Of a stretch of 40,728 bases of DNA, positions 1,680-18,905 are shown one piece after another (the stretch's first letter is position 1; the number at the start of each line of letters is the position of its first letter). Below the pieces are notes generated by a model. The model was not told the DNA's origin, did no database searches, and worked only from the letters and a program-made list of their open reading frames with translations. The stretch is from Myxococcales bacterium (GTDB taxonomy: Bacteria; Myxococcota_A; Polyangia; Polyangiales; Polyangiaceae), in NCBI GenBank assembly GCA_025351875.1, contig JANXVA010000803.1, positions 1 to 40,728 on the forward strand, written 5' to 3'. A program made the translations under genes and the position numbers.

Positions 1680-2552
1680 ATGCACAAGGCTTCCGTCCTC
1701 CTCTTGCCTGTCTGCGCCGCGCTCGTCTCCTGCGGCGGCTCGCTTGGACGGGCCAACGAGGCTCGCCCGCGTCACCCCGTCGAGCCCCTCCGCGGACCCG
1801 CGCCTGCCGCGCCCGTCCTCGAGAGAACGGCCTCCGTGTCGGCGCCGCTGTCGTTCGTCGGCCGCCCGAGCCCCCAGGCGGCTGCGCTCGCCCTCCCGAC
1901 ATCGGGCGCCGCCGCAGTCCCATCTCCTGTGCCGGCGCATCACCATGCCTCTGCGCCCACGGCGATCCGACCGGTCGCGGCGTCGGAGCTGTGCGTCTCG
2001 AGCGGACATGTCAATCCCGTGGCATCACACCTCCACGTCGACTCGGGGGCCATGCGCGCCGTCATCGCCGGCGACATGAGCGACACCGCCGAGGTCGACT
2101 TCGTGTACGGCGGCCCGAGCCGGGAGACCACCCCGCTCGCGAGCGGCGAGCTGAGGCGACAGATCGGGCTGAAGCTGCGCGCCAAGGACACATGCAACGT
2201 GGTCTACGTGATGTGGCACGTGGAGCCGACGCCCGGCATCGCCGTGCTCGTCAAGAGCAACCCGGGGGCCTCGACGCATCAACAGTGCGCGGATCGCGGG
2301 TACGTCAGCATCCCCCCGACGGCGGCCGCAGCGGTACCGCACATCGTGCCGAACGAGAGGCACGCGCTTCGTGCGGAGATCCACGGCGACGTTCTTCGCG
2401 TGCTCGTCGACCGCACCGTGGCCTGGACCGGCACTCTGCCGCCGGAAGCCCTCACGTTCGGAGGCCCCGCCGGCATCCGCACGGACAACGGCGTCTTCGA
2501 CCTCGACCTCAGCGTCGCTCGCGCGCGCGCGGCCGGAGCGAGCTGTCGCTGA
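1680..2552 (+). CDS. Lipoprotein of unknown function
   Basis: 290 residues. The start is the ATG before HKASVLLLPVCAALVSC, giving a lipoprotein signal with lipobox LVS-Cys18. A Pro/Ala-rich linker follows to about residue 95, then a beta-rich C-terminal domain with three further cysteines (two of them in CNVVYVMWHVEP and QQCADRGYV) and an MRAVIAGDMSDTAEVDFVYGG segment. The pattern resembles a concanavalin-like or jelly-roll fold (inference; no family recognised). The gene diverges from the HDOD gene across 147 bases and converges on the synthase gene, whose stop lies 7 bases beyond its own stop. Placement beside the exopolysaccharide locus makes a surface or polymer-binding role conceivable but unproven. 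Confidence 0.7.
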   Translation: MHKASVLLLPVCAALVSCGGSLGRANEARPRHPVEPLRGPAPAAPVLERTASVSAPLSFVGRPSPQAAALALPTSGAAAVPSPVPAHHHASAPTAIRPVAASELCVSSGHVNPVASHLHVDSGAMRAVIAGDMSDTAEVDFVYGGPSRETTPLASGELRRQIGLKLRAKDTCNVVYVMWHVEPTPGIAVLVKSNPGASTHQQCADRGYVSIPPTAAAAVPHIVPNERHALRAEIHGDVLRVLVDRTVAWTGTLPPEALTFGGPAGIRTDNGVFDLDLSVARARAAGASCR

Positions 2553-2558
2553 GCCGAC

Positions 2559-4430
2559 TCAGGCCGCGCGCCGCCCGGACTCGCCGTCGCGAGCCTCGAT
2601 GACCGCGCGCACCGGAAGCGGCCGCACCACCGCGAGGTGCGGCGCGGGTTCGCTCGCCGCGGCGTGCCCGATGGTCGCGTGCTCGGTGGTCACACCGAAG
2701 CGGAGACGCGCGTAGAGGCTCGGCCTCTTGCCGGTCGTCCATCCCTGATAGCCGCTCGGCGTCCACGGCGTCTCGCCCCATCCGAACCAGAATGTGCCGA
2801 GCGGAACGTCGCCATAGATCGCCGACCGCAGCGCGAGCACAGCGGCGCGGCGCACGCGTGCGAAGAGCGCGATGCGCGACGAGCCGCCCTTGATGAGCGT
2901 CGACTCCGGCGCGAACTTCGTGCAGTTGCCGAGCAGCAGGACGTCCTTCGTCATCCCCACGGCGCCCGCCCAGAAGCCGTAGATCGGCAGGTAGAGCGGC
3001 GCCACCGGGAGGGCGAGCAGGAGCCGCCATCGCGAGACGAGCACGCCGTCGATGAGGAGCGCGAGGACCGTGCTCACCGTGTAGATCGCGCTGTGCACGA
3101 CGAGGCCGACCGCGAGCGGGAGCAGCAGGCCGGTCTTCGCCATGACGAGCGGGGCCTGGACGTACGCGAACAACCCGAAGACCGCGCACTTGATCATCAG
3201 ACCCACCGAGCCGAGGCCGGCCAGCGAGACGTCCCAGTGGTACCGGAACGACTTACGGAAGCGTCCCACCACCTCGATGCGTGACGCGTTCCAGCGCATG
3301 CGCTGGCGCCAGAGCGTGCCGACCGTGGACGGCGATGACGAGTAGACGCGAGCCTCCGACTCGTAGCGTAGGCCACGATCGAAGAGGAGCGTCCTCAGCA
3401 TGTAGAGGAAGGCGTGGACGGGCGTGCGCGGCGCGTCGAGCGTGAGCCGCCCGTTCTCCCAGCGAGCCATGATCGCGAGGAACGCGCTCACCGTGTCGTC
3501 CGTGTCGCCGGCGAGCAGCTCGGGAATGGGAGCCGCCTTGCTCTCCGAGAACCGGGGTGGTGCAGCGCCGAACCACCATTTGACCCAGTCGCGCCGGTCG
3601 AGCGTCTTCATGAAGCCCATGAAGCGCGGGCCCTCGACGAGGATGTCGGTCCACGTGCAGTAGAGCGCGCCAGGGATGCCGCAGATCGGCAGCGGGCGCA
3701 CGTTGTAACGCATCATGCCAGTGACCAGGTATTCGCGCGCCACCTGCAGCGTGAGCTGCCCCTCGAGCGTGAGGAAGTGACGCCACCCCTTCCAGTACTG
3801 CTCCTCGCGCACGTGGAGGTGCCCCGCCACCGCGCGGCCAGGGTTGCCCGTGAAGAAGTTCTTCTTCACGAGTCGGCGCGCGAGCAGCTCGAGCGCGTGC
3901 GGCCCGAGGTCGGCATCGGCGTCGGTGCTGAAGTAGATCTCCGGAAATCGCGCGGACACGCCGCGCTCGACGAGCTTCTCGACGTGGCGAATCGCATGAT
4001 CGATCGCGAGGGGCTTGCCGCGGCGGTCCGGCGTGCCGATCAAGTGGAGTGAGACGTCCTTCGGCAGGTCGCGCTGTCGCGCTTCGAACCAGCGCTCGAG
4101 CTCGGCAAAGAGCCTCGGAGCGTCGAGCGCCCCGTCGATGCTCGTGACGACCATCATCTCCCCGGGGTAGTCGTTCTCGATCACGTTGCTGACGGTCGCC
4201 TTGATCGCCTCGAGCTCCTCGACGCCGCGGAGGAGCGACGGGATGATGAGGAGCCCCGACGGAAGCCGCTCCTTCGACGCCTGCGGCTGGCGCCCGAGCG
4301 CCGAGCGGAGGAGACGCCACGGCAAGAGCAGCGCGAGCTGGTCGCCGAAGAACAGCAGCACCAGGAGCGCGACCGCTCCCACGGGCGTGGCGACGAAGAG
4401 CGTCTGCAAGTCAGCGAGGAGCCAGACCAT
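2559..4430 (-). CDS. Processive family-2 glycosyltransferase (polysaccharide synthase), copy 1
   Basis: 623 residues, inner membrane. One N-terminal membrane segment (about 13-38), a cytoplasmic GT2 domain, then several C-terminal segments (about 402-500). Catalytic signature of processive synthases is present: Asp99 in TSIDG, a TDADAD block (170-174), GDTDDT (309-312) and QRMRW (376-380), as in cellulose, hyaluronan, curdlan and alginate synthases. The conserved tail FWFGWGETPWTPSGYQGW is shared with copy 2. No PilZ domain is seen. It is last in the cassette TolC-like, HlyD-like, synthase; only 6 bases separate it from the upstream stop. It should polymerise a nucleotide sugar and thread the chain across the membrane; the sugar cannot be read from sequence. 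Confidence 0.85.
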   Translation of the reverse strand: MVWLLADLQTLFVATPVGAVALLVLLFFGDQLALLLPWRLLRSALGRQPQASKERLPSGLLIIPSLLRGVEELEAIKATVSNVIENDYPGEMMVVTSIDGALDAPRLFAELERWFEARQRDLPKDVSLHLIGTPDRRGKPLAIDHAIRHVEKLVERGVSARFPEIYFSTDADADLGPHALELLARRLVKKNFFTGNPGRAVAGHLHVREEQYWKGWRHFLTLEGQLTLQVAREYLVTGMMRYNVRPLPICGIPGALYCTWTDILVEGPRFMGFMKTLDRRDWVKWWFGAAPPRFSESKAAPIPELLAGDTDDTVSAFLAIMARWENGRLTLDAPRTPVHAFLYMLRTLLFDRGLRYESEARVYSSSPSTVGTLWRQRMRWNASRIEVVGRFRKSFRYHWDVSLAGLGSVGLMIKCAVFGLFAYVQAPLVMAKTGLLLPLAVGLVVHSAIYTVSTVLALLIDGVLVSRWRLLLALPVAPLYLPIYGFWAGAVGMTKDVLLLGNCTKFAPESTLIKGGSSRIALFARVRRAAVLALRSAIYGDVPLGTFWFGWGETPWTPSGYQGWTTGKRPSLYARLRFGVTTEHATIGHAAASEPAPHLAVVRPLPVRAVIEARDGESGRRAA

Positions 4431-4436
4431 GGGCGC

Positions 4437-5603
4437 CTATTTGCTCGCGACGGTCGAGGATTTCGCGACGCCGGGCCCGCCGGCCCCTTTGCCCGCCGAG
4501 CGGACGCGGAGCGTCTTCGACTGCGCAGCGTGCTGATCGTCGAGGGCGATGACCGCGTAGACGCCGCGCGCTGGAGAGCCCCACGGGTCCGGAACGATGA
4601 CCTCACCCGGCAAGACCTCCGTGACCCGGCCGACCTGCGTGCACGAGAAGACCCCGAGGACGCACTCGTAGACCTTGCCTCCCGCGCTGACGCCCTCGAC
4701 CTGCGTATACGGGATGAACGCCACGTTGGTGCTCGCGTCGATGGCGCGGAAGATCGGCCGCTTGTTGAGCTGCGCGAGGAGCTCGTCGAGCTTGCCGACC
4801 TCCTCCTCGATGTGACGGCGCATCGCGCTCTTGGTCCTGCGCTCCGCCTCGAGCTTGAGCAGATCGCACTTGATGCGCACGAGCTGCTCCTGCTGCATGA
4901 GCATCTCGGGGGTCGCGACCTTCGTCGAAGGACCGTGGCCACCGGTGGTCATCGCGTGCCGGGTCAGGAGCACCTGGTCCATCGCCGTCTGCGCGAGGAG
5001 CCGCGCCCGCTCGTTCTCGATGATGGCGACGCGGATCGGCCCGAGCGCGTTCGTCTCGCGGGTGTACTCGCTCTTCTGGAGGAGCCCGGCCGCGAGATCG
5101 GTCTCGGCCCGGGCGACGACGGCCTCCTGGGCTGCGAGCATCGAGTTGAGCTCCGCCTGATGACGGCGGAGGATGTCGAGCTCGTGAGTGTCGGCCTTCG
5201 CTTGGGTGTTCGTGACGACGCCCGTCCAGTCGAGCGACTTCTCGACCGAGCCCTGGAGCGCCTTCAGCTGCTCGATCGCTTGCTCCGCCGCGTAGAGCTC
5301 GGCCTCGGCCTGCTCCCGCTGCAAGGAGATCTTCATTCGCTCGCTGAGGAGCGCCGCGCGGCTGAGCGTGCTCTGGATGACGAGGTCGCTGTCGGGGGAG
5401 AGCACCACCGGGACGACGAACGAGTCGGTGGCGATGTGGTACGCGTTCTTCGCGAGGTAGCCGACGCCCGCGACGGTGAGGCACAGCGCCGCCACCGACA
5501 CGATCCGCGAGCGGAGGAGCGTCTGCTTCGTCGGCTTCGCCTGGCGCTGCGACGTCGTGGGGGCGGTCTCCACCTCGACTTCCACGTTCGACGTTGCGTT
5601 CAC
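4437..5603 (-). CDS. HlyD-like membrane-fusion protein of the synthase cassette, copy 1
   Basis: 388 residues. A short cytoplasmic N-terminus, one membrane segment (about 33-55), half of a beta-barrel (FVVPVVLSPDSDLVIQ), a long alpha-helical coiled-coil region (about 80-265), then the returning barrel with RPIFRAIDASTNVAFIPYTQ and a PGEVIVPDPWG motif. This order is the membrane-fusion/HlyD layout, in which the protein spans the periplasm between an inner-membrane partner and an outer-membrane channel. The start ATG overlaps the stop of the TolC-like gene (ATGA), indicating translational coupling. Alg44 and the BgsB protein of rhizobial mixed-linkage glucan systems have similar architecture (family knowledge). 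No PilZ domain is seen. Confidence 0.8.
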   Translation of the reverse strand: MNATSNVEVEVETAPTTSQRQAKPTKQTLLRSRIVSVAALCLTVAGVGYLAKNAYHIATDSFVVPVVLSPDSDLVIQSTLSRAALLSERMKISLQREQAEAELYAAEQAIEQLKALQGSVEKSLDWTGVVTNTQAKADTHELDILRRHQAELNSMLAAQEAVVARAETDLAAGLLQKSEYTRETNALGPIRVAIIENERARLLAQTAMDQVLLTRHAMTTGGHGPSTKVATPEMLMQQEQLVRIKCDLLKLEAERRTKSAMRRHIEEEVGKLDELLAQLNKRPIFRAIDASTNVAFIPYTQVEGVSAGGKVYECVLGVFSCTQVGRVTEVLPGEVIVPDPWGSPARGVYAVIALDDQHAAQSKTLRVRSAGKGAGGPGVAKSSTVASK

Positions 5604-6736
5604 TTCTGGCCTCCCACGTGGGCCTGGGCGAACGCGAGCGAGGTCAGGAAGCGCTGCTCCGCCTCGAGGGCGATCATCTGGAGTGTCATCGTCGCGATCA
5701 CCGTGTGTTTGTTGGGTGCGTCGGTCCCATCGAGCGAAGCCCGATCAAGCATCATCCGCGCCAGCTCTTGTTCGATGGCGTGCGCCTGGCTTCGGCTCGC
5801 GTCGGCACTCGCGCGGAGCTCGTGCACGAGCGTCTCGATCTGGTGGCGCATCTCGTAGCGCGCGTTCTTCAGCTCCTTCGCACGCGCGTCGACCGCGCGC
5901 CCTTCGCGGCCGACCGAGAAGAGGCCGCCGAAATTGTAGGAGAGCTCGGCGATCCCGTACGCGTCGACGGTGGGGTTGGCTGCGACGCCGCCGATCACGC
6001 CGAACCGCCACGGCTCGAGGTTGCGGACGTGGGCGACGCGCTCCTCGGTCTCGACGGAGCGCTCTTCGTAGCTCCGGAGGAGCTCGCCGAGAGGCTCCGC
6101 AGGCATCGTGAGCCCGCGCGCCTTGACGCCCGCGATATCGGCCTCGAGCCGGGTGATGTCTCGCGCGAACGACAGCGCGCGGATCCGGAGGTCCTGGACC
6201 TCGGGCAGCGTCGAGGTGTGCGCCGCAAAGCGCTCCTCGGCCGTGCGCACGAGGTCCTGCACGGCCACGGACTGCTCGCGCAAGAACGCGAGCTTGCGCT
6301 CGAGCGCGGGCAGACGCCCGATGTCCTCGCGGAGCGCGATCACGTCTTCGAGCGTCGACGCGCTCGCCTGACGACGACACTCCGCGCGCGCGACGTCGAG
6401 CACCCCGACGCCCTTGTAGATGTCGACGAAGCCGACGCTGAGAGCGGCGCGCGGCTGGAGCCCGTGACCGAGCACGAGCCCGGACGGGTCGGCGGAGCCG
6501 TTGTTCGGGAGCCGGATCAGCTGCACGTGCGCGGTCGGTGCAAAGAGGAGCGCGGCGTCGCTCTCGGCTCGCGCCGTCACCTTCTGGCAGTGGTCGCTCG
6601 GAACCTCTGCCCGTGCCGCGGCCGACCACATCGTCATGACGATCCCCGCGAGCACCGTGAAGGCAGCGCGCTTACGAGGCCGGACGAGAGCCGAGAGGAG
6701 CGCGTCGTTCGTCGTGAGAGGGGCTTCGAGCATCAT
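5600..6736 (-). CDS. TolC-like secreted coiled-coil protein of the synthase cassette, copy 1
   Basis: 378 residues. Basic RPRKR followed by a hydrophobic core and AAARA gives a Sec signal peptide ending near residue 43. The mature part contains long heptad-rich helices (about 130-225 and 285-370) around a short beta segment (WRFGVIGGVAANPTVDAYGIAELSYNFGG) that reads like an outer-membrane strand pair. This is the layout of TolC-type proteins, but it is shorter than a usual 420-480-residue TolC, so it may be a reduced or single-hairpin form. It is first in the minus-strand cassette, with a conserved 37-nt element starting 12 bases upstream. Two adjacent ATGs make the exact start uncertain by one codon. 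Likely outer-membrane exit for the polymer (inference). Confidence 0.7.
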   Translation of the reverse strand: MMLEAPLTTNDALLSALVRPRKRAAFTVLAGIVMTMWSAAARAEVPSDHCQKVTARAESDAALLFAPTAHVQLIRLPNNGSADPSGLVLGHGLQPRAALSVGFVDIYKGVGVLDVARAECRRQASASTLEDVIALREDIGRLPALERKLAFLREQSVAVQDLVRTAEERFAAHTSTLPEVQDLRIRALSFARDITRLEADIAGVKARGLTMPAEPLGELLRSYEERSVETEERVAHVRNLEPWRFGVIGGVAANPTVDAYGIAELSYNFGGLFSVGREGRAVDARAKELKNARYEMRHQIETLVHELRASADASRSQAHAIEQELARMMLDRASLDGTDAPNKHTVIATMTLQMIALEAEQRFLTSLAFAQAHVGGQK

Positions 6737-6748
6737 TGCTTCGGAGGG

Positions 6749-6785
6749 CGTTCTTTCATCATTCGTGCCTGTCAGCAGCTTGACG
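6749..6785 (-). promoter_or_regulatory. Conserved 37-nt element upstream of cassette 1
   Basis: Read on the minus strand it begins CGTCA-N6-TGACAGGCACG, containing the dyad GTCA-N6-TGAC, and continues into a GATGAAAGAACG-like end. The same block precedes cassette 2, with 29 of 37 positions identical and all differences outside the dyad and the GGCACG core. GGCACG-N4-ATGAA resembles a sigma-54 promoter (GGCACG-N4-TTGCA) but lacks the usual GC at -12, so that reading is tentative. It may instead be an operator plus ribosome-binding region. Confidence 0.5.
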
Positions 6786-6914
6786 TCGGGGCCATTTTTG
6801 CGAGGTTTCTTCTCGAGTTTCAGGCGCCACGGGGCTCTCCAGTCAGTCGGGTGACGAGGCCGTCACGGCGATGGCGCAGCACTCCCCGCCCCGTCAATGG
6901 CGACAAAACACGAA

Positions 6915-6944
6915 GGTCCGGGGCTCGACGAGGAGCTCCGGACC
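6915..6944 (-). terminator. Hairpin terminator between the two synthase cassettes
   Basis: A stem of 12 positions with one mismatch (GGTCCGGAGCTC arm) and a short loop lies 30 bases past the stop of synthase copy 2 and, on the minus strand, is followed by TTCGTGTTTTG. This fits an intrinsic terminator that ends the first cassette before the second begins. Confidence 0.55.
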
Positions 6945-6974
6945 GAACGCACTGCGCCTTCGCGCGGAACGATC

Positions 6975-8897
6975 TCAGGCGGCGCGACGATCCGCGGCCT
7001 CGCCCACCTCGCCCCGCGCGTTCGTCGGCGTCGTCTCGGCCTCCAGCGCGCGCGGCCCGCGGACCACGGCCAGGACCGGCGAAGCGCGCCTGGCCGTCGA
7101 GACCTCGGCGGCGACCTTTGCCGGGCCACCGCGAGCGAAGGCCGCGATGCGTGCCCACGGGACGATGGCCCGTGCGTTCTTGCCCGAGGACCACCCCTCG
7201 AAGCCGTTCGGAGTCCACGTCGTCTCGAGCCACCCGAACCAGAAGGCACCGAACGGAACGTCGCCGTAGAGGACGGAACGGACGGTGAGCGCGAGGAAGC
7301 GGCGAAGACGGAAGAGCAGCGCCACGCGCGTCGTCTGGCCGGCGATGAGCGTGGACTCGGGCGCGAACTTGGTCGGGTTGCCGAAGAGCAGAAGGTCCTT
7401 CGTCACGCCGTAAGCGCACGCGAGGTTGCTGCTCACGATGGTGTACAGCGGGGTCAGCGGGAGGCACATCACGCTGCGCCAGGAGCGCCGGTAGTCTCGC
7501 TCGATCGAGAACGCGACCGCGGTGTAGAGGATGTCCTCGATGACGTGGAACGCGTACCCGAAGAAGAACCCGAGGGCCACGTGGCCGCGCCCGAGGCAAA
7601 CGAACGGGATCACGAAGTAATAGACGAGGATCTTGCCCACGTTCTGGAGCACCAGCGACAGGTGCAGGCTCGTGGGAAAGCCGATCTCCCAGTGAAACCA
7701 GAACGCTCGCGAGAAGCGGCCCGCGCACTCGAAGCGCGACGAGTTCCAGCGGACGCGCTGCACCCAGAGCCCCTTCACGGACGAGGGAGTGAAGGTGTAG
7801 ATGCGTGCCTCGGGCTCGTACATGTGCGAGCGCTCGACCCAGAAGCCGAGAAAGAGCCGCCCCAGCGAGTGGAGCGGGGTGCGCGGCGCGTCGAGGGAGA
7901 GCTTGCCGTTCTTCCAGGTCGCCATGCTCGCGAGGAACGCCATGCAGGTGTCGTCCGAGGCGCCCGTCAGGGCCTCGGCGGCGGGGGGCTCCACGCTGTC
8001 CGAGAACCGCGGGGGCGGCGCGCCCATCCACCATTTCAGCCAGTGCGAGGCGCGGACCGTGCGCAGAAAGGCCATGTAGTACGGCGCCATCACGAGGAGG
8101 TCCGACCAGCAGCAGTAGAGCGCACCGGGCACGCCGATCTGCGGGAACAGCTTCCGGTTGAAGCGCATCATGTTCGAGACCACGAACTCGCGCGCGACCT
8201 GCTGGTAAATCTGCCCTTCGATCGTGAAGAAGGCGCGCCAGCCGCGCCAGATGAGGTCCGGCCGGATCGCGAGCTTGCCGGACACGATCCGGCGCTGGTT
8301 CTTCGTGAGCCAGTGGCGCGTGGCGAGCCGAGCGGCGAGGCGCTCGAGCGCGTGTGGCCCGAGGATGCCGTCACCGTCGATGCTGAAATAGACCTCCGGG
8401 AACGCCGCGAGCGTGCCAGCCGCGACCTCGGCGTTCACGAAGAGAACGCCGGCCTCGACGGCCATCATCTTGCCCTGCCGTCTCTCGGTGCCGGTCAGGC
8501 GCACATGCACGTTCACCGGGTAGGAGCGCCCGGCGATCCACCGGGTGAGCTCGGCATAGAGCTTCGGGTGCTCCGTCCTGCCGTCCACGCTGGCGACGAT
8601 CACGAGCTCGCTCGGATAACCGTTGGTGGCGCAGCTCTCGATGGTCGTCGTGATCGCCTTGAGATCGTCGCCGTCGCGGAGCAGCGACGGGATGATGACG
8701 AGGCCGGTCGGCCGCGAGCCGGGGCCCCCAGGCGTGAAGAACGGCAGGCCGAGCGCCTTTCGCCCGAAGAAGGTGGCGAACAGACCGAGCACATCGGGGC
8801 GCTCGATCGTGAACGTGACCATCACGTGGAGGAAGAAGACAGGCACGACGATCAGAAAAACGTCGAGCGTCCGCAAGCCCCAGACGAAGCCGTCCAT
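6975..8897 (-). CDS. Processive family-2 glycosyltransferase (polysaccharide synthase), copy 2
   Basis: 640 residues, inner membrane. Same architecture as copy 1: an N-terminal membrane segment (about 8-30), a GT2 domain with Asp105 in ASVDG, IDGDG (173-177) instead of the TDADAD of copy 1, GASDDT (312-317), and QRVRW (380-384), then C-terminal membrane segments. The tail FWFGWLETTWTPNGFEGW and the TKFAPESTLI motif are shared with copy 1. The ATG chosen (MDGFVWGLRTLDVF) lies 2 bases after the stop of the upstream HlyD-like gene; longer readings run into that gene and are not credible. The two synthases are clearly paralogous but diverged in the donor-binding region, so they may not make the same polymer (inference). 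Confidence 0.85.
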   Translation of the reverse strand: MDGFVWGLRTLDVFLIVVPVFFLHVMVTFTIERPDVLGLFATFFGRKALGLPFFTPGGPGSRPTGLVIIPSLLRDGDDLKAITTTIESCATNGYPSELVIVASVDGRTEHPKLYAELTRWIAGRSYPVNVHVRLTGTERRQGKMMAVEAGVLFVNAEVAAGTLAAFPEVYFSIDGDGILGPHALERLAARLATRHWLTKNQRRIVSGKLAIRPDLIWRGWRAFFTIEGQIYQQVAREFVVSNMMRFNRKLFPQIGVPGALYCCWSDLLVMAPYYMAFLRTVRASHWLKWWMGAPPPRFSDSVEPPAAEALTGASDDTCMAFLASMATWKNGKLSLDAPRTPLHSLGRLFLGFWVERSHMYEPEARIYTFTPSSVKGLWVQRVRWNSSRFECAGRFSRAFWFHWEIGFPTSLHLSLVLQNVGKILVYYFVIPFVCLGRGHVALGFFFGYAFHVIEDILYTAVAFSIERDYRRSWRSVMCLPLTPLYTIVSSNLACAYGVTKDLLLFGNPTKFAPESTLIAGQTTRVALLFRLRRFLALTVRSVLYGDVPFGAFWFGWLETTWTPNGFEGWSSGKNARAIVPWARIAAFARGGPAKVAAEVSTARRASPVLAVVRGPRALEAETTPTNARGEVGEAADRRAA

Positions 8898-8899
8898 GG

Positions 8900-10003
8900 C
8901 TACTTCGCCGCCACTGGCATGGTCGCGGACGTGCCCTGGGGCCCCTTCTCGAGCCGCACCCGGAGGCTCTTCGACTTCGCCGACTCGTGCCGGCTGAGGT
9001 CGAGAACGGCGTACTGACCGCGGGTCTGCGTCCCCCACGGATCCGGCAGGATGACCTCGCCCGGAACGATCTCGGCGATGCTGCCCACCGCCTTGCAGTG
9101 GAAGAGGCCCCACACGCAGTCGTAGACGACCTCACCGGCGTGCATGCCTTCGATCTGGGTGTAGGGAACGAAGGCGACGTCCATGCTCTTCTCGACGGCG
9201 CGGAAGATCGGACGTCCCTTCAGCTGGGCGCTGATCTCGTCGATCTTCGCGAGCTTGTCGCGGAGGAGCGTGCGCTCGGCGGTCTGCGTGCGCTGTTCGG
9301 CCTCGAGCTTGAGGAGCTCGAGCTCGACGCGGACCATCTGGTCCTCGCGGTTGATCATCTCGGGCATCGGAGCGGCACCGCCGCCGGACGCGAGCGACTG
9401 CTGCGCGAGCATCACCTGCTTCATCTGCATCTCGGCCTGGAGGCGCATCCGCTCGTTCTCGAGCAGGCCCAGCTGCACCTGGCCGACCGACTGCACCTCC
9501 TTGGCGTAGTCGGTGCGCGAGATGAGCCCCGCGTCGAGGTCTGCACGCGCGGCGCGCGAGAACGCGTCTTGCTGCGCGAGCGCCGTGGCCAGGAGGCTCT
9601 TCTGCTCGGCGAGGGTGTGGAGATCCGCCGTGCCCGCGAACGCTTGCCCCGCGTTGACCTTCTTCGTCCAGACGAGCGCATTCTCCGTGCGCGTCTGCAG
9701 CTGCTTCAGCCGGCCGATGGCCTTCTCGCAGGCCGCGAGATTGCTCTCGATGCCCTCGAGCTCTGCGGCGGCCTTGGCGCGCTCGACATAGAGCTCGTTC
9801 AGCTTGATCTTGCTCTGCACGATGAGGTCGTTGTCGGGCGAGAGGATGATGGGTGCGATGAAGGAGTCGGTCGCCGCTCGGTATCCCTCACGGCCTACGT
9901 ACCCGACGCCGGAGACGACGGTGAGCAGGGTGACGAGGGCGAAGATTCTCGTCTTCACCCCGCCCGCGGGCGGCTCTTCGGACACATCGATGTTCGCTTC
10001 CAT
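8900..10003 (-). CDS. HlyD-like membrane-fusion protein of the synthase cassette, copy 2
   Basis: 367 residues, paralogue of the copy in cassette 1. One membrane segment (about 18-40), the shared ATDSFIAPIILSPDNDLI barrel strand, a long coiled coil (about 60-245), then GRPIFRAVEKSMDVAFVPYTQIEG and PGEVILPDPWG. It lies 2 bases from the TolC-like gene upstream and 2 bases from the synthase downstream, so the three are surely co-translated. It is expected to connect the synthase to the outer-membrane component across the periplasm. Two conserved cysteines near the end (YDCVWGLFHCK; YECVLGVFSCT in copy 1) could form a disulfide in both copies. Confidence 0.8.
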   Translation of the reverse strand: MEANIDVSEEPPAGGVKTRIFALVTLLTVVSGVGYVGREGYRAATDSFIAPIILSPDNDLIVQSKIKLNELYVERAKAAAELEGIESNLAACEKAIGRLKQLQTRTENALVWTKKVNAGQAFAGTADLHTLAEQKSLLATALAQQDAFSRAARADLDAGLISRTDYAKEVQSVGQVQLGLLENERMRLQAEMQMKQVMLAQQSLASGGGAAPMPEMINREDQMVRVELELLKLEAEQRTQTAERTLLRDKLAKIDEISAQLKGRPIFRAVEKSMDVAFVPYTQIEGMHAGEVVYDCVWGLFHCKAVGSIAEIVPGEVILPDPWGTQTRGQYAVLDLSRHESAKSKSLRVRLEKGPQGTSATMPVAAK

Positions 10004-10005
10004 GT

Positions 10006-11169
10006 TCAGGTCTCCTCCAGAGTACGGAGCTGCGCGACGAGCTCGGTCAGGTAGGCGCGCTCGGCGTCCGCCGCGATGAGCTCGAGCTCCATGAGCGCGA
10101 GCGCGTGGGCTGCTTTCAAGGCTTCGGAGCTCTCGAGCGCGGCGCGCCCTGCGTTCAGCATCGAGATGCGGGATTCCAGCACCTGGAGCTCACGCTGCGC
10201 CTGCGCCGACGACGCGCGAAGGTTCGACCGGAACGTCGAGATCCGCGAAGCGAGCTCGTGGCGCGACGCCTTCAGCTCGTCTTCGCGCGCGTCCAGGTAT
10301 CGGGACTCGGCGGCGTTGCGCCAGACGCTGCCGAGGTTGTGGGTGAGCGCGACCATCCCGTACCAATCCGAATGGTCGGAGCCGAAGAAGGGCGGGATGT
10401 AGCCGGCCGTGAGGTGGACGCTCCAGCTGTCGAGCGAACGCACATGGGAGGCCTTCCGTTCGTAGCGCATCGCCGTGGTCTCGACCGCGCGCGTGAGGTC
10501 CGCGAGCGTTCCCTTGAAGACCCTCGCGCCGCTGCTCTCGAGGCGCTCCTTGTCACCCACGAGCTGCGCGCGCTGCCGATCGAGGGAGATGGCGCGCGTC
10601 CGTACCTCCTCGACCTGCTGGAGCGTCGTCACCGACGATGCGAACCGCTGCTCGCTCTTGGCCACGAGCGCTTCCCAGCCGGGCCGCCGCGCGTCGAGGA
10701 GCTCGATCTGCTTCTGGAGCGCCGGCGCTCGACCGTACTCCTTTCCCTGGGCGATGATCTCCTCGGCGGTGACCGCGCTCACGTGCTGATCGCAGTCGGC
10801 GTCTCCCAGGTCCAGCACCCGGAACCCCTTGTAGATGTCGAGCGGAGAGACCGACACGCCGCCGCGGATCTGGTACTCGGGACCGACCTGCGAAGGGTCG
10901 ATGGGGTTGGCGCCAGCCTGGAACGCCGTCGGAAGCTTGATGCCGTCGAGGCGGAGAGAGGGCGCGATGAGCAGTGACGCGTCGCTCACGGCGCGCGCAC
11001 GCACCTTGCGGCAGTACGGAGTGTCGTCGGCCCTGGCCGGCGCGACAACGGCGGTGAGAGCGATCGCTGCACCGGCAGCGCAGAGCCGCGCGAGAGCCGT
11101 GTCTCGCCTCGCCCTGCGACGCGACTTCGTCACCTCGGGTTCTCCATCGGCGTACGGAACGCCTGTCAT
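10006..11169 (-). CDS. TolC-like secreted coiled-coil protein of the synthase cassette, copy 2
   Basis: 387 residues from the chosen ATG. A basic SRRRARR stretch, hydrophobic core and APARA give a signal peptide of about 47 residues, similar to the 43 in copy 1. The mature part has C-x-K-V-x-A-R-A near its start in both copies, the SVxxxDIYKGxxVLD motif, and long coiled coils on either side of a short beta segment (WSVHLTAGYIPPFF). A GTG 21 bases upstream is an alternative start with a GAAAGAG stretch 8 bases ahead of it; the ATG was preferred because its signal peptide length matches the paralogue. First gene of the upstream cassette. Outer-membrane role is inferred. Confidence 0.7.
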   Translation of the reverse strand: MTGVPYADGEPEVTKSRRRARRDTALARLCAAGAAIALTAVVAPARADDTPYCRKVRARAVSDASLLIAPSLRLDGIKLPTAFQAGANPIDPSQVGPEYQIRGGVSVSPLDIYKGFRVLDLGDADCDQHVSAVTAEEIIAQGKEYGRAPALQKQIELLDARRPGWEALVAKSEQRFASSVTTLQQVEEVRTRAISLDRQRAQLVGDKERLESSGARVFKGTLADLTRAVETTAMRYERKASHVRSLDSWSVHLTAGYIPPFFGSDHSDWYGMVALTHNLGSVWRNAAESRYLDAREDELKASRHELASRISTFRSNLRASSAQAQRELQVLESRISMLNAGRAALESSEALKAAHALALMELELIAADAERAYLTELVAQLRTLEET

Positions 11170-11195
11170 CGAAGGGGCTCGGTTGGTCACGCCGA

Positions 11196-11232
11196 CGCTC
11201 TTTCACCATCCGTGCCTGTCATCGCGGTGACG
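11196..11232 (-). promoter_or_regulatory. Conserved 37-nt element upstream of cassette 2
   Basis: Same block as upstream of cassette 1: CGTCA-N6-TGACAGGCACG followed by a GATGGTGAAAGAGCG-like end, on the minus strand. It lies in the roughly 260-base divergent region between the TolC-like gene and the GH16 gene. Its conservation, while the surrounding intergenic DNA is unrelated, argues for a functional site. A sigma-54-like reading (GGCACG-N4-GTGAA) is imperfect at -12. Confidence 0.5.
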
Positions 11233-11434
11233 CGCGTGGCCGATGGGAGCTGGAAAACTGCCGATCGAAGCGTCCGGCGTCGACCAACGCCGCGTCATGG
11301 CCATGGCTCGACGACGGCGTACTGACAGCGAGACGATCGCCGCGAAACGCCGGCCATCGGCGGGCATCGATAGAGAAGGCCAGCGACTCCATCCACGTCC
11401 GTGCGCGGGCACGCTCGCTGCAACGACGCCCCGC

Positions 11435-12613
11435 ATGCAGCGACGAACGACGAAACGCCGTCACCGCGCCGTCAGCCAGCCGCGATGGGCCATGCTCGCT
11501 TGCGTCTTCGTGGGCTGCTCTTCGCCGAGCGCCCCCACGCCCGTCGACGCGACCTGGACCTCGAGGCCCACGCCGAGCTCCGCCGCCGACGCTGGGGCGA
11601 GCGTCGACGCCGCCAACCCCGACGACGTGCCCGAGCCGGTCTGCGCGCTGACCGGCGCTCCCGCGAGCACACCGGGTGACGTGCTCGTCTTCAGCGACGA
11701 ATTCGACGGTACGAGCGTCGACACGAAGAAGTGGAACGTCGGTTCGGGCAAGCGCGGCCCCTCCAGTGTCATCAACACCACGTCACCCGCGAACGCGACG
11801 CTCGCCGAGGGAGCGCTCCGCATCCGCGTCGACGACACCTCGACGGACCCGAGGTACCCGTACACGTCGGGCTACATCGAGTCGCTCGGCACGTTCGCCC
11901 GGACCTACGGCAAGGTCGAGTTCCGCGCGCGCTTCCCGTACGCGGCCGGTGTGTGGCACGCGATGTGGGGTCGGGCGTGGTTCGAGTCCTTCCCCGAGAT
12001 CGACATCGAGATCCTCAACACGGCCGCCGTCCCGCGGTCCCAGGTCTACTTCGTCAACCACTGGGCCGCGCCGCCGATCCCCGCCGACCAGCGACGCTCC
12101 TACGTCACGTTCTCGGACACCGACGTCAGCACCTTCCACACGTACACGGTCTCGTGGACGCCGAACCACCTCGAGTGGGCGATGGACGGCGTCACGAAGA
12201 TGCAGACCACCGGGCAAGGCGTCCCGACGAAGCCCGTCTACTGGATCATGAACTCCTGGGTCGGCGGCTGGGCAGGCCCTCCACCGGTCACCACGTTGAT
12301 GCCGGTCACGTTCGAGGTCGACTATTTCCGCGTGTATCGCGTGGACGGTCTCATCGCTGATCCCGAGATCCACCTCGTCAATCCGGCGGATCATTACGCG
12401 CGCACCGATGCGATCCGGGTCGCGGCGGCAAACTTCGACGAGGTCTGCGCACACGTCGAGATGTACGACGGCGGCGCGCTCGTCAACACGACCTCGACCG
12501 CGCCGTATCGCTTCTCGCTCGCGCGGCTCGCGTCGGGACCGCACGCGCTCATGTTCGTCGCGACCGATGGCGCTCGCCGCACGTCGACCACCCTCCAGAC
12601 GCGGATCCAATGA
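11435..12613 (+). CDS. GH16-family glycanase lipoprotein
   Basis: 392 residues. A basic N-terminus and short hydrophobic stretch end in VFVG-Cys28, a weak lipobox, then a Ser/Asp/Ala linker. The GH16 jelly roll runs from about FSDEFDGTSVDTKKW to FEVDYFRVYRV (about 85-300). The active site EIDIE (Glu188 nucleophile, Asp190, Glu192 acid/base) is intact and lacks the extra residue of the bulged laminarinase type, so it is the regular-strand form found in lichenase-like and related enzymes. A C-terminal bacterial Ig-like domain (about 308-390: VNPADHYARTDAIRV...APYRFSLARLASGPHALMFVATD) follows. The stop overlaps the next start (ATGA). Upstream ATG/GTG starts are possible but would lengthen the basic region implausibly. 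Likely trims the exported glycan (inference). Confidence 0.85.
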   Translation: MQRRTTKRRHRAVSQPRWAMLACVFVGCSSPSAPTPVDATWTSRPTPSSAADAGASVDAANPDDVPEPVCALTGAPASTPGDVLVFSDEFDGTSVDTKKWNVGSGKRGPSSVINTTSPANATLAEGALRIRVDDTSTDPRYPYTSGYIESLGTFARTYGKVEFRARFPYAAGVWHAMWGRAWFESFPEIDIEILNTAAVPRSQVYFVNHWAAPPIPADQRRSYVTFSDTDVSTFHTYTVSWTPNHLEWAMDGVTKMQTTGQGVPTKPVYWIMNSWVGGWAGPPPVTTLMPVTFEVDYFRVYRVDGLIADPEIHLVNPADHYARTDAIRVAAANFDEVCAHVEMYDGGALVNTTSTAPYRFSLARLASGPHALMFVATDGARRTSTTLQTRIQ

Positions 12614-14505
12614 GCTCGCGCTCCAGCCTGCGTCCGCTCGGCCTCGCGATCGTGCTCGCCATGGGCGCCTCGGCTGCCTGCGACGCGCCGCAGCCGCGCG
12701 TCGCGGCCTGGGTCGCACCCGCCGCCGCCGCGCCGCCGGAGCCCGAGGCGATGTACCTGGAGATGAACCAGGGCGACATGAAGACCGCGGACGCGCTCCT
12801 CCAGGACCTGTGGCCGGCGCGCGGTCATCCCGACGCGAAGCTCTCGTGGCCGCTGACCTGGACCGAGGATCCGTACGAGGACGCCTACTTCCGCTTCATG
12901 TTCTATTCGCTCCGTCACACCGAGCACCTGCTCTGGGCATTCCAGACGACTCACGATCGGCGCTACCTCGACAAGCTCCTCGGCGTGCTCGACTCGTATG
13001 TCGCCTACGACGCGACGCGCGCGCCCGACATCGACTCCTTCGACAACGCCCACGCCGCGTCTTACCGCGCGATGGTGCTCACGAACGTCTCCTTCAAGCT
13101 CCAGCAGATCGGCGAGCTCTCGCCGACGCTCCAGACCGGCATCCGCGACTCGCTCCAGCGACTCGGCGTGTTCCTCATGCGCCCGAAGAGCTTCGAGGGA
13201 CACGCCAACCACGGCTTCACCGAGGCGGCGGCGCTGCTGGTCGTCGCGCACAATTTCCCCGACCTCGACGGCGCCGCGAGCTGGCGGGCGACGGGCATCG
13301 AGCGGCTCGAGCAGATGCGCGTGACGAACATCGACGCAGACGGCGTCGACATCGAGAACTCGCCTTTCTACCACCTGCTCGTCCTGGGGCTCGTCGCGCA
13401 GATCGGGCACTGGTCCGCGCAGTACGAGCCGGAGATCAGCGAACCGTGGAAGCAGACCGAAAAGGCGATGCTTCGCTACGTCGCGTACGTGACGCAACCC
13501 GACGGGGCGCTGCCCATGCTCGGCGCGACGCAGGCGACCACCGTCCCGAGCCGCGACGCGCGGCTGTTCGGGCCGCTCGCCGCTCTCGACCCCGAATACG
13601 CGTGGGTGTGGTCGGGCGGCAAGGGCGGCACCGCGCCCGCCAAGCGCGCCGAGCTCTTCCCGGTCGCCGGCCTCTTCGTCCTCCGCGCGGAGCCCAAGGC
13701 GTCGCGTCAGACGTTCGTGACGTTCGACTCGGGCTCCTACCGCACCGACCACAGCCACCTCGATGCGCAGAGCGTCACGATCTACTCGGACGGGGTCGCC
13801 CTGTTCCCCGACGGTGGCCTCTGCACCTACGACGTCGGCGCCGAATACGACTATTTTCACGGGACGCGGTCGCACAACACGGTGGTCGTCGACGGCAAGG
13901 ACCAGGGGGTGGGAGACGCGTCGCCCGGCGCCTACGGCGTCACTGGAAAGTCGTCGTGGGCCACGGGCATCAGCAACCTCTACGCGGGCGTCACGCACCG
14001 GCGCACCGTCATCGTCGTCGACCAGAGCCTCGTGCTCGTGACCGACGATCTCACCAGCGACACCGCCCACGACTACACGCAGACCTGGCACGTCGCTCCG
14101 TCGGCTCACACCGCGATGGCCGGCTTCGACGCGAAGGTGACAGACGCTGACGGGGCTCCCATCGGCCTGATTCTCCAGGCCGAGCCCGAGGGCCTGACGG
14201 TGGAGAGCACGCGCGGCGCGAGCGCCCGCATGCAGGGCTGGGTCTCCGAGGTCTACGGCAAGAAGCTCGAGGCCGACGCCATCGAGTACAACCGCCGCGC
14301 GAGGAGCGCGCGCTTCGCCACGCTCATCGCTACGGGCGCTCGTGCCGCGCTCGGCAAGGCTCCGACCATGCGTCAGAGCATCGACCCGGGAACGGGCGAA
14401 CGAACCATCGGCGTGTGCGCGTACGGCGCGGACGACACGATCCGCATCGCTCACGAAGGAACCACCGAAGCCACCGTCACCGTCACCGGCGGCGGGGGCT
14501 GCTGA
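12610..14505 (+). CDS. Heparinase II/III-type polysaccharide lyase lipoprotein
   Basis: 631 residues. Signal with lipobox SAA-Cys24. The N-terminal alpha/alpha toroid (about 50-330) holds GHANHGFTEAAAL (Asn200-His201) and DGVDIENSPFYHLL (Glu249, Tyr254, His255), positions matching the catalytic Asn/His/Tyr area of PL12/15/17-type lyases. The C-terminal beta-sandwich carries TDHSHLDAQS (His381, His383, Asp385) and SHNTVVVDGKDQG (421-433), both hallmarks of the heparinase II/III fold. Known members cleave uronic-acid glycans such as alginate or heparin by beta-elimination. Translationally coupled to the GH16 gene and followed by a UDP-sugar 6-dehydrogenase, which suggests the substrate is an acidic polymer made here. 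Confidence 0.8.
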   Translation: MSSRSSLRPLGLAIVLAMGASAACDAPQPRVAAWVAPAAAAPPEPEAMYLEMNQGDMKTADALLQDLWPARGHPDAKLSWPLTWTEDPYEDAYFRFMFYSLRHTEHLLWAFQTTHDRRYLDKLLGVLDSYVAYDATRAPDIDSFDNAHAASYRAMVLTNVSFKLQQIGELSPTLQTGIRDSLQRLGVFLMRPKSFEGHANHGFTEAAALLVVAHNFPDLDGAASWRATGIERLEQMRVTNIDADGVDIENSPFYHLLVLGLVAQIGHWSAQYEPEISEPWKQTEKAMLRYVAYVTQPDGALPMLGATQATTVPSRDARLFGPLAALDPEYAWVWSGGKGGTAPAKRAELFPVAGLFVLRAEPKASRQTFVTFDSGSYRTDHSHLDAQSVTIYSDGVALFPDGGLCTYDVGAEYDYFHGTRSHNTVVVDGKDQGVGDASPGAYGVTGKSSWATGISNLYAGVTHRRTVIVVDQSLVLVTDDLTSDTAHDYTQTWHVAPSAHTAMAGFDAKVTDADGAPIGLILQAEPEGLTVESTRGASARMQGWVSEVYGKKLEADAIEYNRRARSARFATLIATGARAALGKAPTMRQSIDPGTGERTIGVCAYGADDTIRIAHEGTTEATVTVTGGGGC

Positions 14506-14527
14506 ACCGTCAAGGAGTCGTCACGTC

Positions 14528-15808
<1,281 letters not shown>

Positions 15809-16737: not shown

Positions 16738-17661
16738 ATGAGGACGTTCGCCGCCATCGTCGCCGGAGTCGCAGCCTGCGCCATCCTCGCCGTCGCGAGC
16801 GACGCGTCCGCGTACTGCCGCTCGACGACGTGCCGCTCGACGAGCACGAAGGAATGCGCGACTGACGAGAACAGCTGCCCGACCGACGGCGCGAGGCTCT
16901 TCTGGCCGACGAGCTGCGTGAGCTACGCGATGAACGAGCTCGGCACGCAGGATCTCGACCCCGTCGACACGCGCAACATCATCCGCAAGACCTTCCAGGC
17001 GTGGACCGAGGTGCCCTGCCCGAAGGGCGGCAACGCGTCGATGACCTTCGAGGAGCGCGACCCCGTCTCCTGCAAGAAGAGCGAGTACAACAAGGACGCT
17101 CACAACCTGAACGTCGTGCTCTTCCAGGACGACGACTGGAAGTACCGCGGCATCGACGGCACGCTCGCGAAGACGAGCGTGACTTACAACGACGAGACCG
17201 GGGAGATCTACGACGCGGACATCGAGGTCAACGCAGCGAACAACACCGTCACGATCACCGACAACCAAGCCAAGATCGAATACGACCTGCAGGCCATCCT
17301 CACGCACGAGGTCGGTCACTTCATCGGCATCGCGCACTCCGCCGAGTCGTCCGCCGTCATGTTCGCTTCGTACTCGCCCGGCTCGACCTCGCAGCGCAAG
17401 CTGACGCCCGACGACATCGACGCGGTCTGCGCGATCTACCCGCCGAACAACGGCGTGGCGTGCAACTCGACGCCGCGCGGGGGCTTCAGCGCTTCGTGCG
17501 ACGCGGCCGACAAAAGCGGCCTCTGCGCCGTGTCCGCGGTCGGCAGCGCCGACGAGCGCAAGGCAGGCGTCGGATCGCTCGCATCGCTGTCGTTCATGGG
17601 TCTCGGCGTGCTTGCGGCGGCGCTCTCACGTCGCGCGAATCGGCTCCGGAGGAGAAAATGA
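16738..17661 (+). CDS. Matrixin-like (M10-type) metalloprotease with C-terminal anchor
   Basis: 307 residues. Signal peptide ending near ASA-Tyr26. Zinc site HEVGHFIGIAH (190-200), a full HExxHxxGxxH, followed by a Met-turn candidate AVMFASY (Met208) and LTPDDIDAVCAIYP, the typical matrixin ending. The N-terminal part of the mature domain has several cysteines (CRSTTC, CATDENSCPTDG) in place of an obvious pro-domain cysteine switch. After the catalytic domain comes a linker, a hydrophobic stretch (SLASLSFMGLGVLAAAL) and a basic tail RRANRLRRRK, an arrangement like sorting/anchor tails of myxobacterial secreted proteins. The stop overlaps the next ATG (ATGA). Expected at the cell surface or secreted. 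Confidence 0.85.
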   Translation: MRTFAAIVAGVAACAILAVASDASAYCRSTTCRSTSTKECATDENSCPTDGARLFWPTSCVSYAMNELGTQDLDPVDTRNIIRKTFQAWTEVPCPKGGNASMTFEERDPVSCKKSEYNKDAHNLNVVLFQDDDWKYRGIDGTLAKTSVTYNDETGEIYDADIEVNAANNTVTITDNQAKIEYDLQAILTHEVGHFIGIAHSAESSAVMFASYSPGSTSQRKLTPDDIDAVCAIYPPNNGVACNSTPRGGFSASCDAADKSGLCAVSAVGSADERKAGVGSLASLSFMGLGVLAAALSRRANRLRRRK

Positions 17662-18905
17662 AGATCTCGCGTTTGCTCGGTGCGGCGCTCGCCGCGACCG
17701 CACTCGTCATCGGCATGCAGGGCTGCTCGTCGACGAACGACGCCACCTCGGGCTCCGGCATCCACTGCACCGCAGGCAACTACGTCTTCTGCCGCTGCGC
17801 CGATCGCGCCGAAGGCACCAAGCTGTGCAAGGACGACGGCGCGAGCTTCGATCCGTGCGCGACAGGAGCTGCCGGCGAGTGCGTCGGCGGCGAGGTCACC
17901 GACCCCGGCACCGGGACTCCGATCCCGCCCGACCAGGTGCCGAAGCCTCCCGATGAGGCTGGTGCGCCCGGATCGCCCGTCGATACGTGCCCCGGTAAGC
18001 CCACCGCCGTGACTCCCGGCGCCGCGATCATCGTCGACGGTGACACCACCGGCGCGGCTGCGGACCTCAAGGGCAAGACGGGCGCGTGCGCCGTCGGCGA
18101 CGGCGGTCCCGATCACGTCTACCACCTGCAGCCGACCGGCACGGGCTCCCTCGAGATCCAGGTGCAAGGCCTCGGCGCGCTGAACCCGCTCTTCTACGTG
18201 CGTGGCACCTGTACGGACGAAGCATCGCAGACGCTCTGCGCACCGCCGCTCGGCGCCGCGAAGCTCGTGAAGAGCCAGATCAACGTCATCGCCGGTCACG
18301 ACTACTTCCTCGTCGTCGACGGCGCCTCCGGCAGCGCGGGCAAGTACCAGCTCACGCTCAAGCTCACGACGGGTTCGTTCTGCGGCGACGGCAAGGTCGA
18401 TCAGGGCGAGGCCTGCGACGACATCAACAAGGTCGACGGCGACGGCTGCTCGCCGAGCTGCACCGCCGTCAACGGCGATCCGGCCGCCGCCGACTGTACG
18501 AACCCGCACAAGGTCGACATGTGGAAGGGCGCCGTCGTCTCCGGCACCGGCAGCACGACGACGTACGGCAACACGTTCGCGAAACCCGGGACCTCCTGCG
18601 ACCCGTCGGTCGGCTCGAACCTGGCTCCTGACCACGTCTACGAGGTCACCGCGCACGCCGCAGGCACGTTGAAGGTCACGATGACCCCGACGGAGGCGAC
18701 CTACAACGTCGTGCTCATCGCCAGGAAGACGTGCACCGACCCGGCGACCCAGGCCGGCGACACGCTCACCAAATGCAACGCGCAGTCGGCGGGTGTCGCC
18801 GAGGTCATCACGGTGCCCGTGGCCTCGGGCGAGAAGATCTACGTCGCCGCAGATGGCGCGCTCACCGCCAAGGGGACGTATACGATCAAGTTCGAGCTCC
18901 CCTGA
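17658..18905 (+). CDS. DUF4215-repeat lipoprotein, paralogue A
   Basis: 415 residues. Lipobox MQG-Cys23. First a small Cys motif CTAGNYVFCRC...EGTKLC.DDG.SF..C (about 36-70), a Pro/Gly linker, then a beta-rich PPC-like domain with GPDHVYHLQPTGTGSLEI, the DUF4215 Cys repeat CGDGKVDQGEACDD...GDGCSPSC, and a second PPC-like domain (APDHVYEVTAHAAGTLKVTM...). DUF4215 repeats are extracellular, disulfide-rich modules common in myxobacteria. The ATG overlaps the protease stop and has GGAGGAG 5 bases ahead, so the pair is coupled. Possible partner or substrate-binding protein of the protease (inference from context only). Confidence 0.8.
   Translation: MKISRLLGAALAATALVIGMQGCSSTNDATSGSGIHCTAGNYVFCRCADRAEGTKLCKDDGASFDPCATGAAGECVGGEVTDPGTGTPIPPDQVPKPPDEAGAPGSPVDTCPGKPTAVTPGAAIIVDGDTTGAAADLKGKTGACAVGDGGPDHVYHLQPTGTGSLEIQVQGLGALNPLFYVRGTCTDEASQTLCAPPLGAAKLVKSQINVIAGHDYFLVVDGASGSAGKYQLTLKLTTGSFCGDGKVDQGEACDDINKVDGDGCSPSCTAVNGDPAAADCTNPHKVDMWKGAVVSGTGSTTTYGNTFAKPGTSCDPSVGSNLAPDHVYEVTAHAAGTLKVTMTPTEATYNVVLIARKTCTDPATQAGDTLTKCNAQSAGVAEVITVPVASGEKIYVAADGALTAKGTYTIKFELP

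Follow-up and report, generated by a model that had tools for sequence, protein, structure and literature searches.

The contig JANXVA010000803.1 of a Myxococcales bacterium, a stretch of 40,728 nucleotides called the window here, contains two cassettes of three genes, copies A and B, at positions 2559–11190 on the minus strand. Each cassette consists of a TolC-like protein gene (OM), an adaptor gene (MFP), and a GT2-type synthase gene (GT). These cassettes probably direct the synthase-dependent export of a uronic-acid-type polysaccharide via the adaptor and a tube of the TolC fold. An earlier note on this DNA had described two complete, diverged copies lying head to tail, and this arrangement is real and conserved.

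Copy B is composed of OM_B (10006–11190, 394 amino acids (aa), with an alternative later start at 11133), MFP_B (8900–10003), and GT_B (6975–8897), all on the minus strand, with gaps of 2 bases at both junctions. Copy A follows at a distance of 238 bases on the same strand: OM_A (5600–6736, 378 aa) and MFP_A (4437–5603, 388 aa, matched by the MFP profile) overlap by 4 bases, and a gap of 6 bases separates MFP_A from GT_A (2559–4430, 623 aa). The tight coupling described before thus stands, although the overlap is GTGA and not ATGA. The two copies are 35% identical in OM (over 338 aa, E 8e-57), 44% in MFP (over 339 aa, E 2e-101), and 44% in GT (over 575 aa, E 5e-167).

Conservation of this gene order was surveyed in Myxococcota. 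MFP_B matched 16 of 377 genomes of the phylum including its own, and four weak ones (E > 1e-5; G091, G208, G218, and G310) were dropped; L049–L051 had no cassette genes. GT_B matched 20 of 183 genomes of the order, 12 of them at E < 1e-100 including its own, and six weak matches (3.3e-5 to 6.5e-4) were dropped. Scanning of the contigs gave 14 loci with 15 cassettes, all from Myxococcota metagenome-assembled genome records assigned to Polyangiaceae, Labilithrix, Kofleriaceae, Sandaracinaceae, and unnamed Myxococcales. The order OM-MFP-GT on one strand is seen in 13 of the 15 cassettes (L097 was judged by tblastn). The exceptions are L094, with the order MFP-OM-GT, and the second cassette of L088, which consists of the B adaptor and synthase (MFP-GT) with no OM gene. 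A dedicated exit for every synthase, as proposed earlier, is therefore not general.

The protein encoded by the first gene is predicted to have a TolC-type outer-membrane-factor fold, as the earlier note supposed and as a structure prediction of the single chain now indicates. The AlphaFold2 model of OM_A, based on a 16-row alignment, has a mean pLDDT of 84.3 and a pTM of 0.70. After the signal peptide, a helix, two strands, four helices, two strands, and two helices follow one another (H-bb-HHHH-bb-HH). Foldseek with this model found 39 PDB chains at E ≤ 1e-3 (best 1.7e-10, probability 1.00). Of these, 33 belong to entries whose titles name TolC-type factors or their pumps; the other six are titled merely "membrane protein from Pseudomonas aeruginosa" and are presumably outer-membrane factors. 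The suggestion of a reduced channel finds no clear support: the model retains a 67-residue helix (270–336), though the strands are short (9–11 residues). A pair of cysteines, C50 and C120 in OM_A numbering, is conserved among the OM proteins.

The AlphaFold2 model of MFP_B (17 rows; mean pLDDT 85.4, pTM 0.58) was inspected for a transmembrane (TM) anchor and a long helical hairpin, and both are present. The TM helix (16–45) is followed by one strand (47–52), a helix of 99 residues (59–157), return helices (163–205 and 214–262), and a C-terminal beta domain (275–350). The beta domain contains a conserved cysteine pair (C296 and C303 in MFP_B numbering). In a Foldseek search the sole PDB match at E ≤ 1e-3 is EmrA (4tko, 2.0e-6), followed by MacA (1.1e-3). 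The middle gene had been called HlyD-like. Its adaptor-like layout agrees with this, while a Pfam HlyD match, the lipoyl domain, and the canonical tip motif are all missing.

The synthases contain the processive-type pattern D, D, D, QxxRW reported previously. In GT_B the residues are D105, D174xD176, D315D316, and Q380xxR383W384, and D, DxD, DD, and QxxRW are the same in all 16 aligned synthases, including GT_A. GT_A and GT_B have GT2 matches in Pfam and NCBIfam, all below threshold, and PilZ of Pfam is absent from GT_A, GT_B, and the L033 synthase. The window synthases represent a longer subfamily, called tier 1 here; tier 2 refers to shorter GT2 synthases located beside related adaptors. 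The two tiers are related (hhalign probability 96.9, E 1.9e-10), and the best PDB relatives of the tier-2 profile are hyaluronan synthases (8.9e-36; 51 matches at E ≤ 1e-3). In 11 of 17 rows, the synthases (2559–4430, 6975–8897, and related loci) have a long variable tail that ends in a conserved [RHN]AA or AA; one of the remaining rows is truncated. A C-terminal AA resembles ClpXP degrons. By analogy, this tail could serve regulated turnover.

The nature of the product is suggested by a divergent operon at 11243–15808 on the plus strand, which was overlooked in the earlier note. It encodes a GH16 glycan hydrolase with a lipoprotein-like N-terminus (11492–12613, the open reading frame (ORF) possibly starting at 11243; PF00722, E 1.1e-15), a lipoprotein-like heparinase II/III-like lyase (12610–14505; PF07940, E 3.2e-29, and PF16889, E 2.2e-13), and a UDP-sugar 6-dehydrogenase (14528–15808). 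The nearest NCBIfam model of the hydrolase is an endo-1,3-1,4-beta-glycanase, at 75.8 of 700 bits and so far below the cut-off. The nearest NCBIfam equivalog of the dehydrogenase is TviB, with 453 of the 592 bits needed. Relatives of GH16 are located near tier-1 cassettes at L075/L088, L079/L091, and L086, and relatives of the dehydrogenase near tier-1 loci at L075/L088, L079/L091, and L087 (each paired name is one contig). A relative of the lyase is found at L075/L088, and none of the three has a relative at the other tier-1 loci examined. Other dehydrogenases adjoin tier-2 cassettes in L037, L150, and L151. Since the operon would supply a UDP-hexuronic-acid-type precursor together with glycan-cleaving enzymes, the product is most likely a polymer containing uronic acid.

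Elsewhere in the class, the adaptor and OM genes also adjoin synthases of the hyaluronan-synthase/NodC-like type. A search of 317 genomes of the class with the MFP profile A1 gave matches in 54, of which three weak ones (2.5e-4 to 7.7e-4) were dropped. A tier-2 GT2 gene is present in the same locus in 28 of 34 loci that are not of the window type (L034, L036–L048, and L132–L151). The usual tier-2 set is GT2, MFP, OM, and the lipoprotein-like gene LAM described below, with GT2 often divergent.

A compact operon of the same kind is found in another phylum, on the plasmid NZ_AP023182.1 of Paraburkholderia sp. PGU19. The plasmid matches a tier-2 synthase (35.7% identity, E 1e-61) and, marginally, MFP_B (E 0.05). 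The stretch concerned (L159) carries on one strand, in this order, an EAL-domain gene, MFP (profile E 1.1e-54), OM (8.7e-23, hhalign E 2.8e-15), a UDP-sugar dehydrogenase 48% identical to that of the window, GH16 (PF00722, 22.4 bits against a cut-off of 22), and GT2. The plasmid is unannotated, and GT2 and GH16 were read from the ORF list. The operon thus corresponds to the parts of the window without LAM and the lyase. The EAL-domain gene that precedes it (14422–15738) is of the cyclic di-GMP phosphodiesterase type. A plasmid of Caballeronia sp. SBC2 matches one third of the Paraburkholderia MFP.

The predicted hairpin turn carries an AGLIxR/K-type motif in tier-1, tier-2, and Paraburkholderia adaptors; in MFP_B it reads AGLISR, at about residues 158–163. 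The turn is present in 47 of 55 aligned adaptors, and an OM gene lies within four genes of 42 of these 47, while none of the eight adaptors lacking the turn has one nearby. Two of the five turn-bearing adaptors without an OM gene (L139 and L143) are at contig ends. This division is a regrouping of a table scripted by hairpin length, where the counts are 42 of 48 against 0 of 7 (Fisher 8.5e-6); the p-value overstates the association because the adaptor rows are related. Three of the OM-positive rows, the two of the window and that of Paraburkholderia, were entered by hand. L041–L046 and L048 are short adaptors of the same family (248–267 aa), with neither the turn nor an OM gene nearby, and three of them (L042, L044, and L048) adjoin a hyaluronan-synthase-like synthase.

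LAM (1680–2552, plus strand), also overlooked before, is convergent with GT_A at a distance of 6 bases. Its protein is 33–46% identical to six proteins adjoining tier-2 cassettes. In L034 and L037 the same domain is fused to OM, as its C-terminal portion. The domain has no Pfam family and no PDB match, and it may be a lectin-like beta-sandwich on a lipoprotein, judging from the sequence. A LAM gene or domain is located within four genes of 23 of 28 turn-bearing tier-2 adaptors (counted by hand from the table, without L035, which is tier 1). Among the tier-1 rows, it is beside all six synthase rows of clade A (see below), namely five related loci and GT_A of the window, and near no other row except those sharing a locus with an A cassette. 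The contigs of L089, L098, and L099 end shortly after the synthase, and the absence of LAM there carries no weight. The host genome has a second LAM gene (L158, 8978–9760, G000:C756), with no adaptor or synthase alongside. At L087 (G443:C130), two LAM genes and a dehydrogenase are accompanied by just a 52-residue synthase match nearby, and this looks like a decayed locus.

Taken together, each cassette probably encodes a three-part envelope machine for a polysaccharide made by its synthase. As its catalytic motif and TM segments suggest, the GT2 synthase would polymerize UDP-sugars and push the chain across the inner membrane. The adaptor, anchored by its one TM helix, would bring its beta domain close to the synthase, and the predicted hairpin of about 100 residues would span the periplasm, if the docking is as proposed. 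The protein of predicted TolC fold would serve as the exit tube. LAM, which is located beside the tube and in some relatives forms one protein with it, would probably act on the chain as it emerges. The dehydrogenase would supply the UDP-hexuronic-acid-type precursor, and the two lipoprotein-like glycan-cleaving enzymes might trim or clear the polymer.

Several observations weigh against this export route. The alignments behind the models are shallow (16 and 17 rows), and the models are of single chains. TM-scores of the 39 Foldseek matches of OM_A are low (0.34–0.47), and the OEP (PF02321) cut-off is not reached (14.8 of 22 bits for OM_A, none for OM_B). The hhalign comparison of OM with seven canonical OEP proteins of the host genome is weak (probability 21.3, E 0.001), with the alignment in register across the second repeat. 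The TM-score of MFP_B to EmrA is only 0.27, and most of its further Foldseek matches are unrelated coiled coils. The MFP_B model has no lipoyl domain, which is reported to stabilize adaptor assembly (PMC8277102): with one strand before the hairpin and about 12 residues between 262 and 275, there is no room for it around the hairpin. The window adaptors have no Pfam HlyD-family match, and hhalign of MFP with HlyD-type proteins of the host genome gave nothing usable (probabilities 23.3 and 0.9). The tip motif RxxxLxxxxxxS/T (RLS), as defined in a passage of PMC3391258, was tried and rejected; it is at the tip in 0 of 17 adaptors and elsewhere in 7 of 17. As for the synthases, a sequence search of the PDB with the tier-1 profile found no relative, and by a crude hydropathy scan GT_A has six TM segments but GT_B only two. 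Owing to these last two results, substrate, topology, and processivity of the synthases are inferred.

OM and MFP obtained no assignment from Pfam or NCBIfam, and their profiles matched only generic coiled coils and unrelated proteins among PDB sequences. OEP is matched 34 times and HlyD_D23 18 times in the host genome, but neither is matched within the window.

The adaptor and OM protein could alternatively be a scaffold, or a regulator of chain length or assembly, with the polymer leaving by another porin. Alg44-type or co-polymerase proteins act in such a manner. The lack of the lipoyl domain agrees with this reading, as do the short turn-less adaptors of L042, L044, and L048, which accompany the same type of synthase where no OM gene is present and would thus have a role independent of the tube. 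On the other hand, neither a tetratricopeptide protein nor a beta-barrel porin of the alginate, cellulose, or poly-N-acetylglucosamine type is found in the 21 of 34 window genes to which the scan was limited, and the TolC fold and the tracking of the hairpin turn by the OM gene do not fit a scaffold. This alternative is considered unlikely.

Slightly less probable still is a role in small-molecule export, in which the synthases would produce short chitooligosaccharide-like or lipid-linked compounds that leave through a TolC-like pore. Small molecules or proteins are the usual cargo of TolC-type pores, and two myxobacterial tier-2 synthases (L036 and L147) score best against NodC in NCBIfam. 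These scores, 171 and 165 of 550 bits, are however far below the cut-off, and the best score of the Paraburkholderia synthase is to PgaC/IcaA (127 of 422 bits, also below the cut-off). The hyaluronan synthases found as best PDB relatives of tier 2, and the adjoining GH16 and heparinase-like enzymes, also speak against such products.

The two cassettes of the window share an upstream element. A 26-base motif, TGACAGGCACGRATGRTGAAAGARCG, has two matches, one upstream of OM_A (TGACAGGCACGAATGATGAAAGAACG, 6749–6774, minus strand) and one upstream of OM_B (TGACAGGCACGGATGGTGAAAGAGCG, 11196–11221, minus strand), and none in 100 shuffles. Exact copies of its 16-base core are found only twice in the 8.9-Mb genome, both times at the window cassettes. 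The sole genomic match with one mismatch (C634) was set aside, as it is inside an ORF resembling glycerol kinase by eye. When the 26 bases of the window were scored on 16 other cassette upstream regions, three (L088A, L095, and L096) passed the 99% shuffle level, and L089, L091, and L100 reached merely the 95% level. A looser form, GGCAYGRANNNTGAA, written after this score list had been seen, is found within 350 bases upstream of eight of 18 tier-1 cassettes (window A, window B, L088A, L089, L091, L092, L095, and L096). These are all its occurrences on both strands of 598,278 bases (L088–L101 and the window), and it is in none of 66 tier-2 upstream regions.

The motif is like a sigma-54 promoter in the -24 half and not in the -12 half. 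GGCACG and the GG-N10 spacing fit such a promoter, but GA replaces GC at -12. With a crude sigma-54 score, only two of 21 upstream regions (L093 and L086, neither of them the motif) passed the 99% shuffle level. Because of the -12 mismatch and the failed score, the motif is called only a shared upstream element.

The head-to-tail layout and the common upstream motif could be taken as signs of a plain recent tandem duplication that left two redundant copies of one system. The synthase tree, however, separates clade A (window A, L088A, and L091–L094; support 100/99) from clade B (window B, L088B, L089, and L090; 100/100), and the two types also occur apart: in one bin, A (L092) and B (L090) are on separate contigs. 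At L088 the A and B cassettes are divergent at one locus. In the OM tree, OM_A of the window groups with L088A and the Labilithrix loci L095, L096, and L098 (96/97), and OM_B groups with L091–L093 (98/94), whose synthases are of type A. As a constraint, clade A of the synthases is rejected by the OM data (approximately unbiased (AU) test, p 0.00015), whereas the MFP data do not reject it (p 0.14); the groups tested were named after the trees had been seen. This indicates that the adaptor stayed with the synthase and the OM gene moved between cassettes. The tandem duplication assumed earlier is thus right as to related head-to-tail copies, but by the trees the A and B synthases are old paralogues with OM genes exchanged between lineages, not a simple tandem duplication. 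Recent duplication is accordingly very improbable. Because old paralogues stand side by side under a shared upstream element, the cassettes probably make two related polymers, or one polymer in two modes. An accidental neighbourhood is the least probable explanation of all, as nothing was found for it and the order in 13 of 15 cassettes, the operon in another phylum, and the fusion of LAM with OM contradict it.

The preferred reading of export through adaptor and tube can be compared with known systems part by part. With TolC/OprM/CusC factors (PF02321), the window OM shares the predicted fold and the order of the two beta-beta-helix repeats, but it remains below the Pfam OEP cut-off and has its conserved cysteine pair. 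With EmrA, MacA, and HlyD adaptors, MFP shares the TM anchor, hairpin, and beta domain, but it lacks the lipoyl domain and the RLS tip and has a cysteine pair in the beta domain. The catalytic motif is common to hyaluronan synthase, NodC, and PgaC, and hyaluronan synthases are the best PDB relatives of the tier-2 partners, whereas the window synthases form a longer subfamily of their own without a PDB relative by sequence.

BgsB is presumably a membrane fusion protein. BgsA/BgsB is a mixed-linkage glucan synthase system of S. meliloti (PMC7997180), which resembles the cassettes in having a GT2 with D, D, D, QxxRW, no PilZ, and a partner gene, bgsB. It differs in that the word TolC is nowhere in the main text of that paper. 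XcsAB-TolC has been proposed as a tripartite system for cyanobacterial cellulose export (Maeda 2018, as cited in PMC12430437). According to the passages of PMC12430437 on this subject, the model is without experimental validation and the three parts are not in one operon; in some cyanobacteria, synthase, HlyD-like, and endoglucanase genes form an operon with TolC elsewhere, and it is asked there whether operon-organized clusters work by the synthase-HlyD-TolC route. XcsAB-TolC has, as here, a synthase, an HlyD-like adaptor, a TolC-like tube, and a glycanase. As far as these passages describe it, XcsA variants contain PilZ or PCR domains, while the window synthases have no PilZ and belong to another subfamily; the tube gene is within the operon here, and the window adaptor has no lipoyl domain. 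The cassettes are thus not an undescribed secretion type as such. The export principle is not new, and the operon-encoded form is a new variant.

Other features of the window are as follows. A gene of the FlhB/YscU export family is located at 21360–22397 (PF01312, E 4.5e-87), and no other export gene was recognized in the window. The cut ORF at 3–503 looks flagellar-hook-protein-like by eye and has no Pfam match. Two pairs of adjoining lipoprotein-like paralogues (32953–33708 with 34438–35184, and 17658–18905 with 18925–19785) have N-termini or motifs that are near-identical by eye. A tocopherol-cyclase-like domain (PF14249, E 5.9e-9) at 35988–37010 is unexpected there. Scans of the window for Rfam families and tRNAs gave none.

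In the titles and abstract openings searched, no description of a myxobacterial synthase-adaptor-TolC system was met, and neither the families, the tube within the operon, the lipoyl-less adaptor, the OM-linked LAM, nor the partnership with hyaluronan-synthase-like enzymes was found described. It can be tentatively proposed, at somewhat less than an even chance, that these cassettes belong to a separate class of synthase-dependent polysaccharide secretion in two phyla, defined by a lipoyl-less adaptor family and an exit of the TolC fold to which a lipoprotein domain is attached. This class would be a plug-in module for at least two GT2 subfamilies, including the hyaluronan-synthase-like one, and so would answer how long chains are delivered across the outer membrane. 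Synthase, adaptor, and tube share one operon, and a precursor enzyme and GH16 are alongside in the window and in one Paraburkholderia operon. Because the parts lie together, the export route can be tested by gene removal. If the proposal is true, TolC-type tubes can pass long polysaccharides, and hyaluronan-synthase-like enzymes would have a route in Gram-negative cells.

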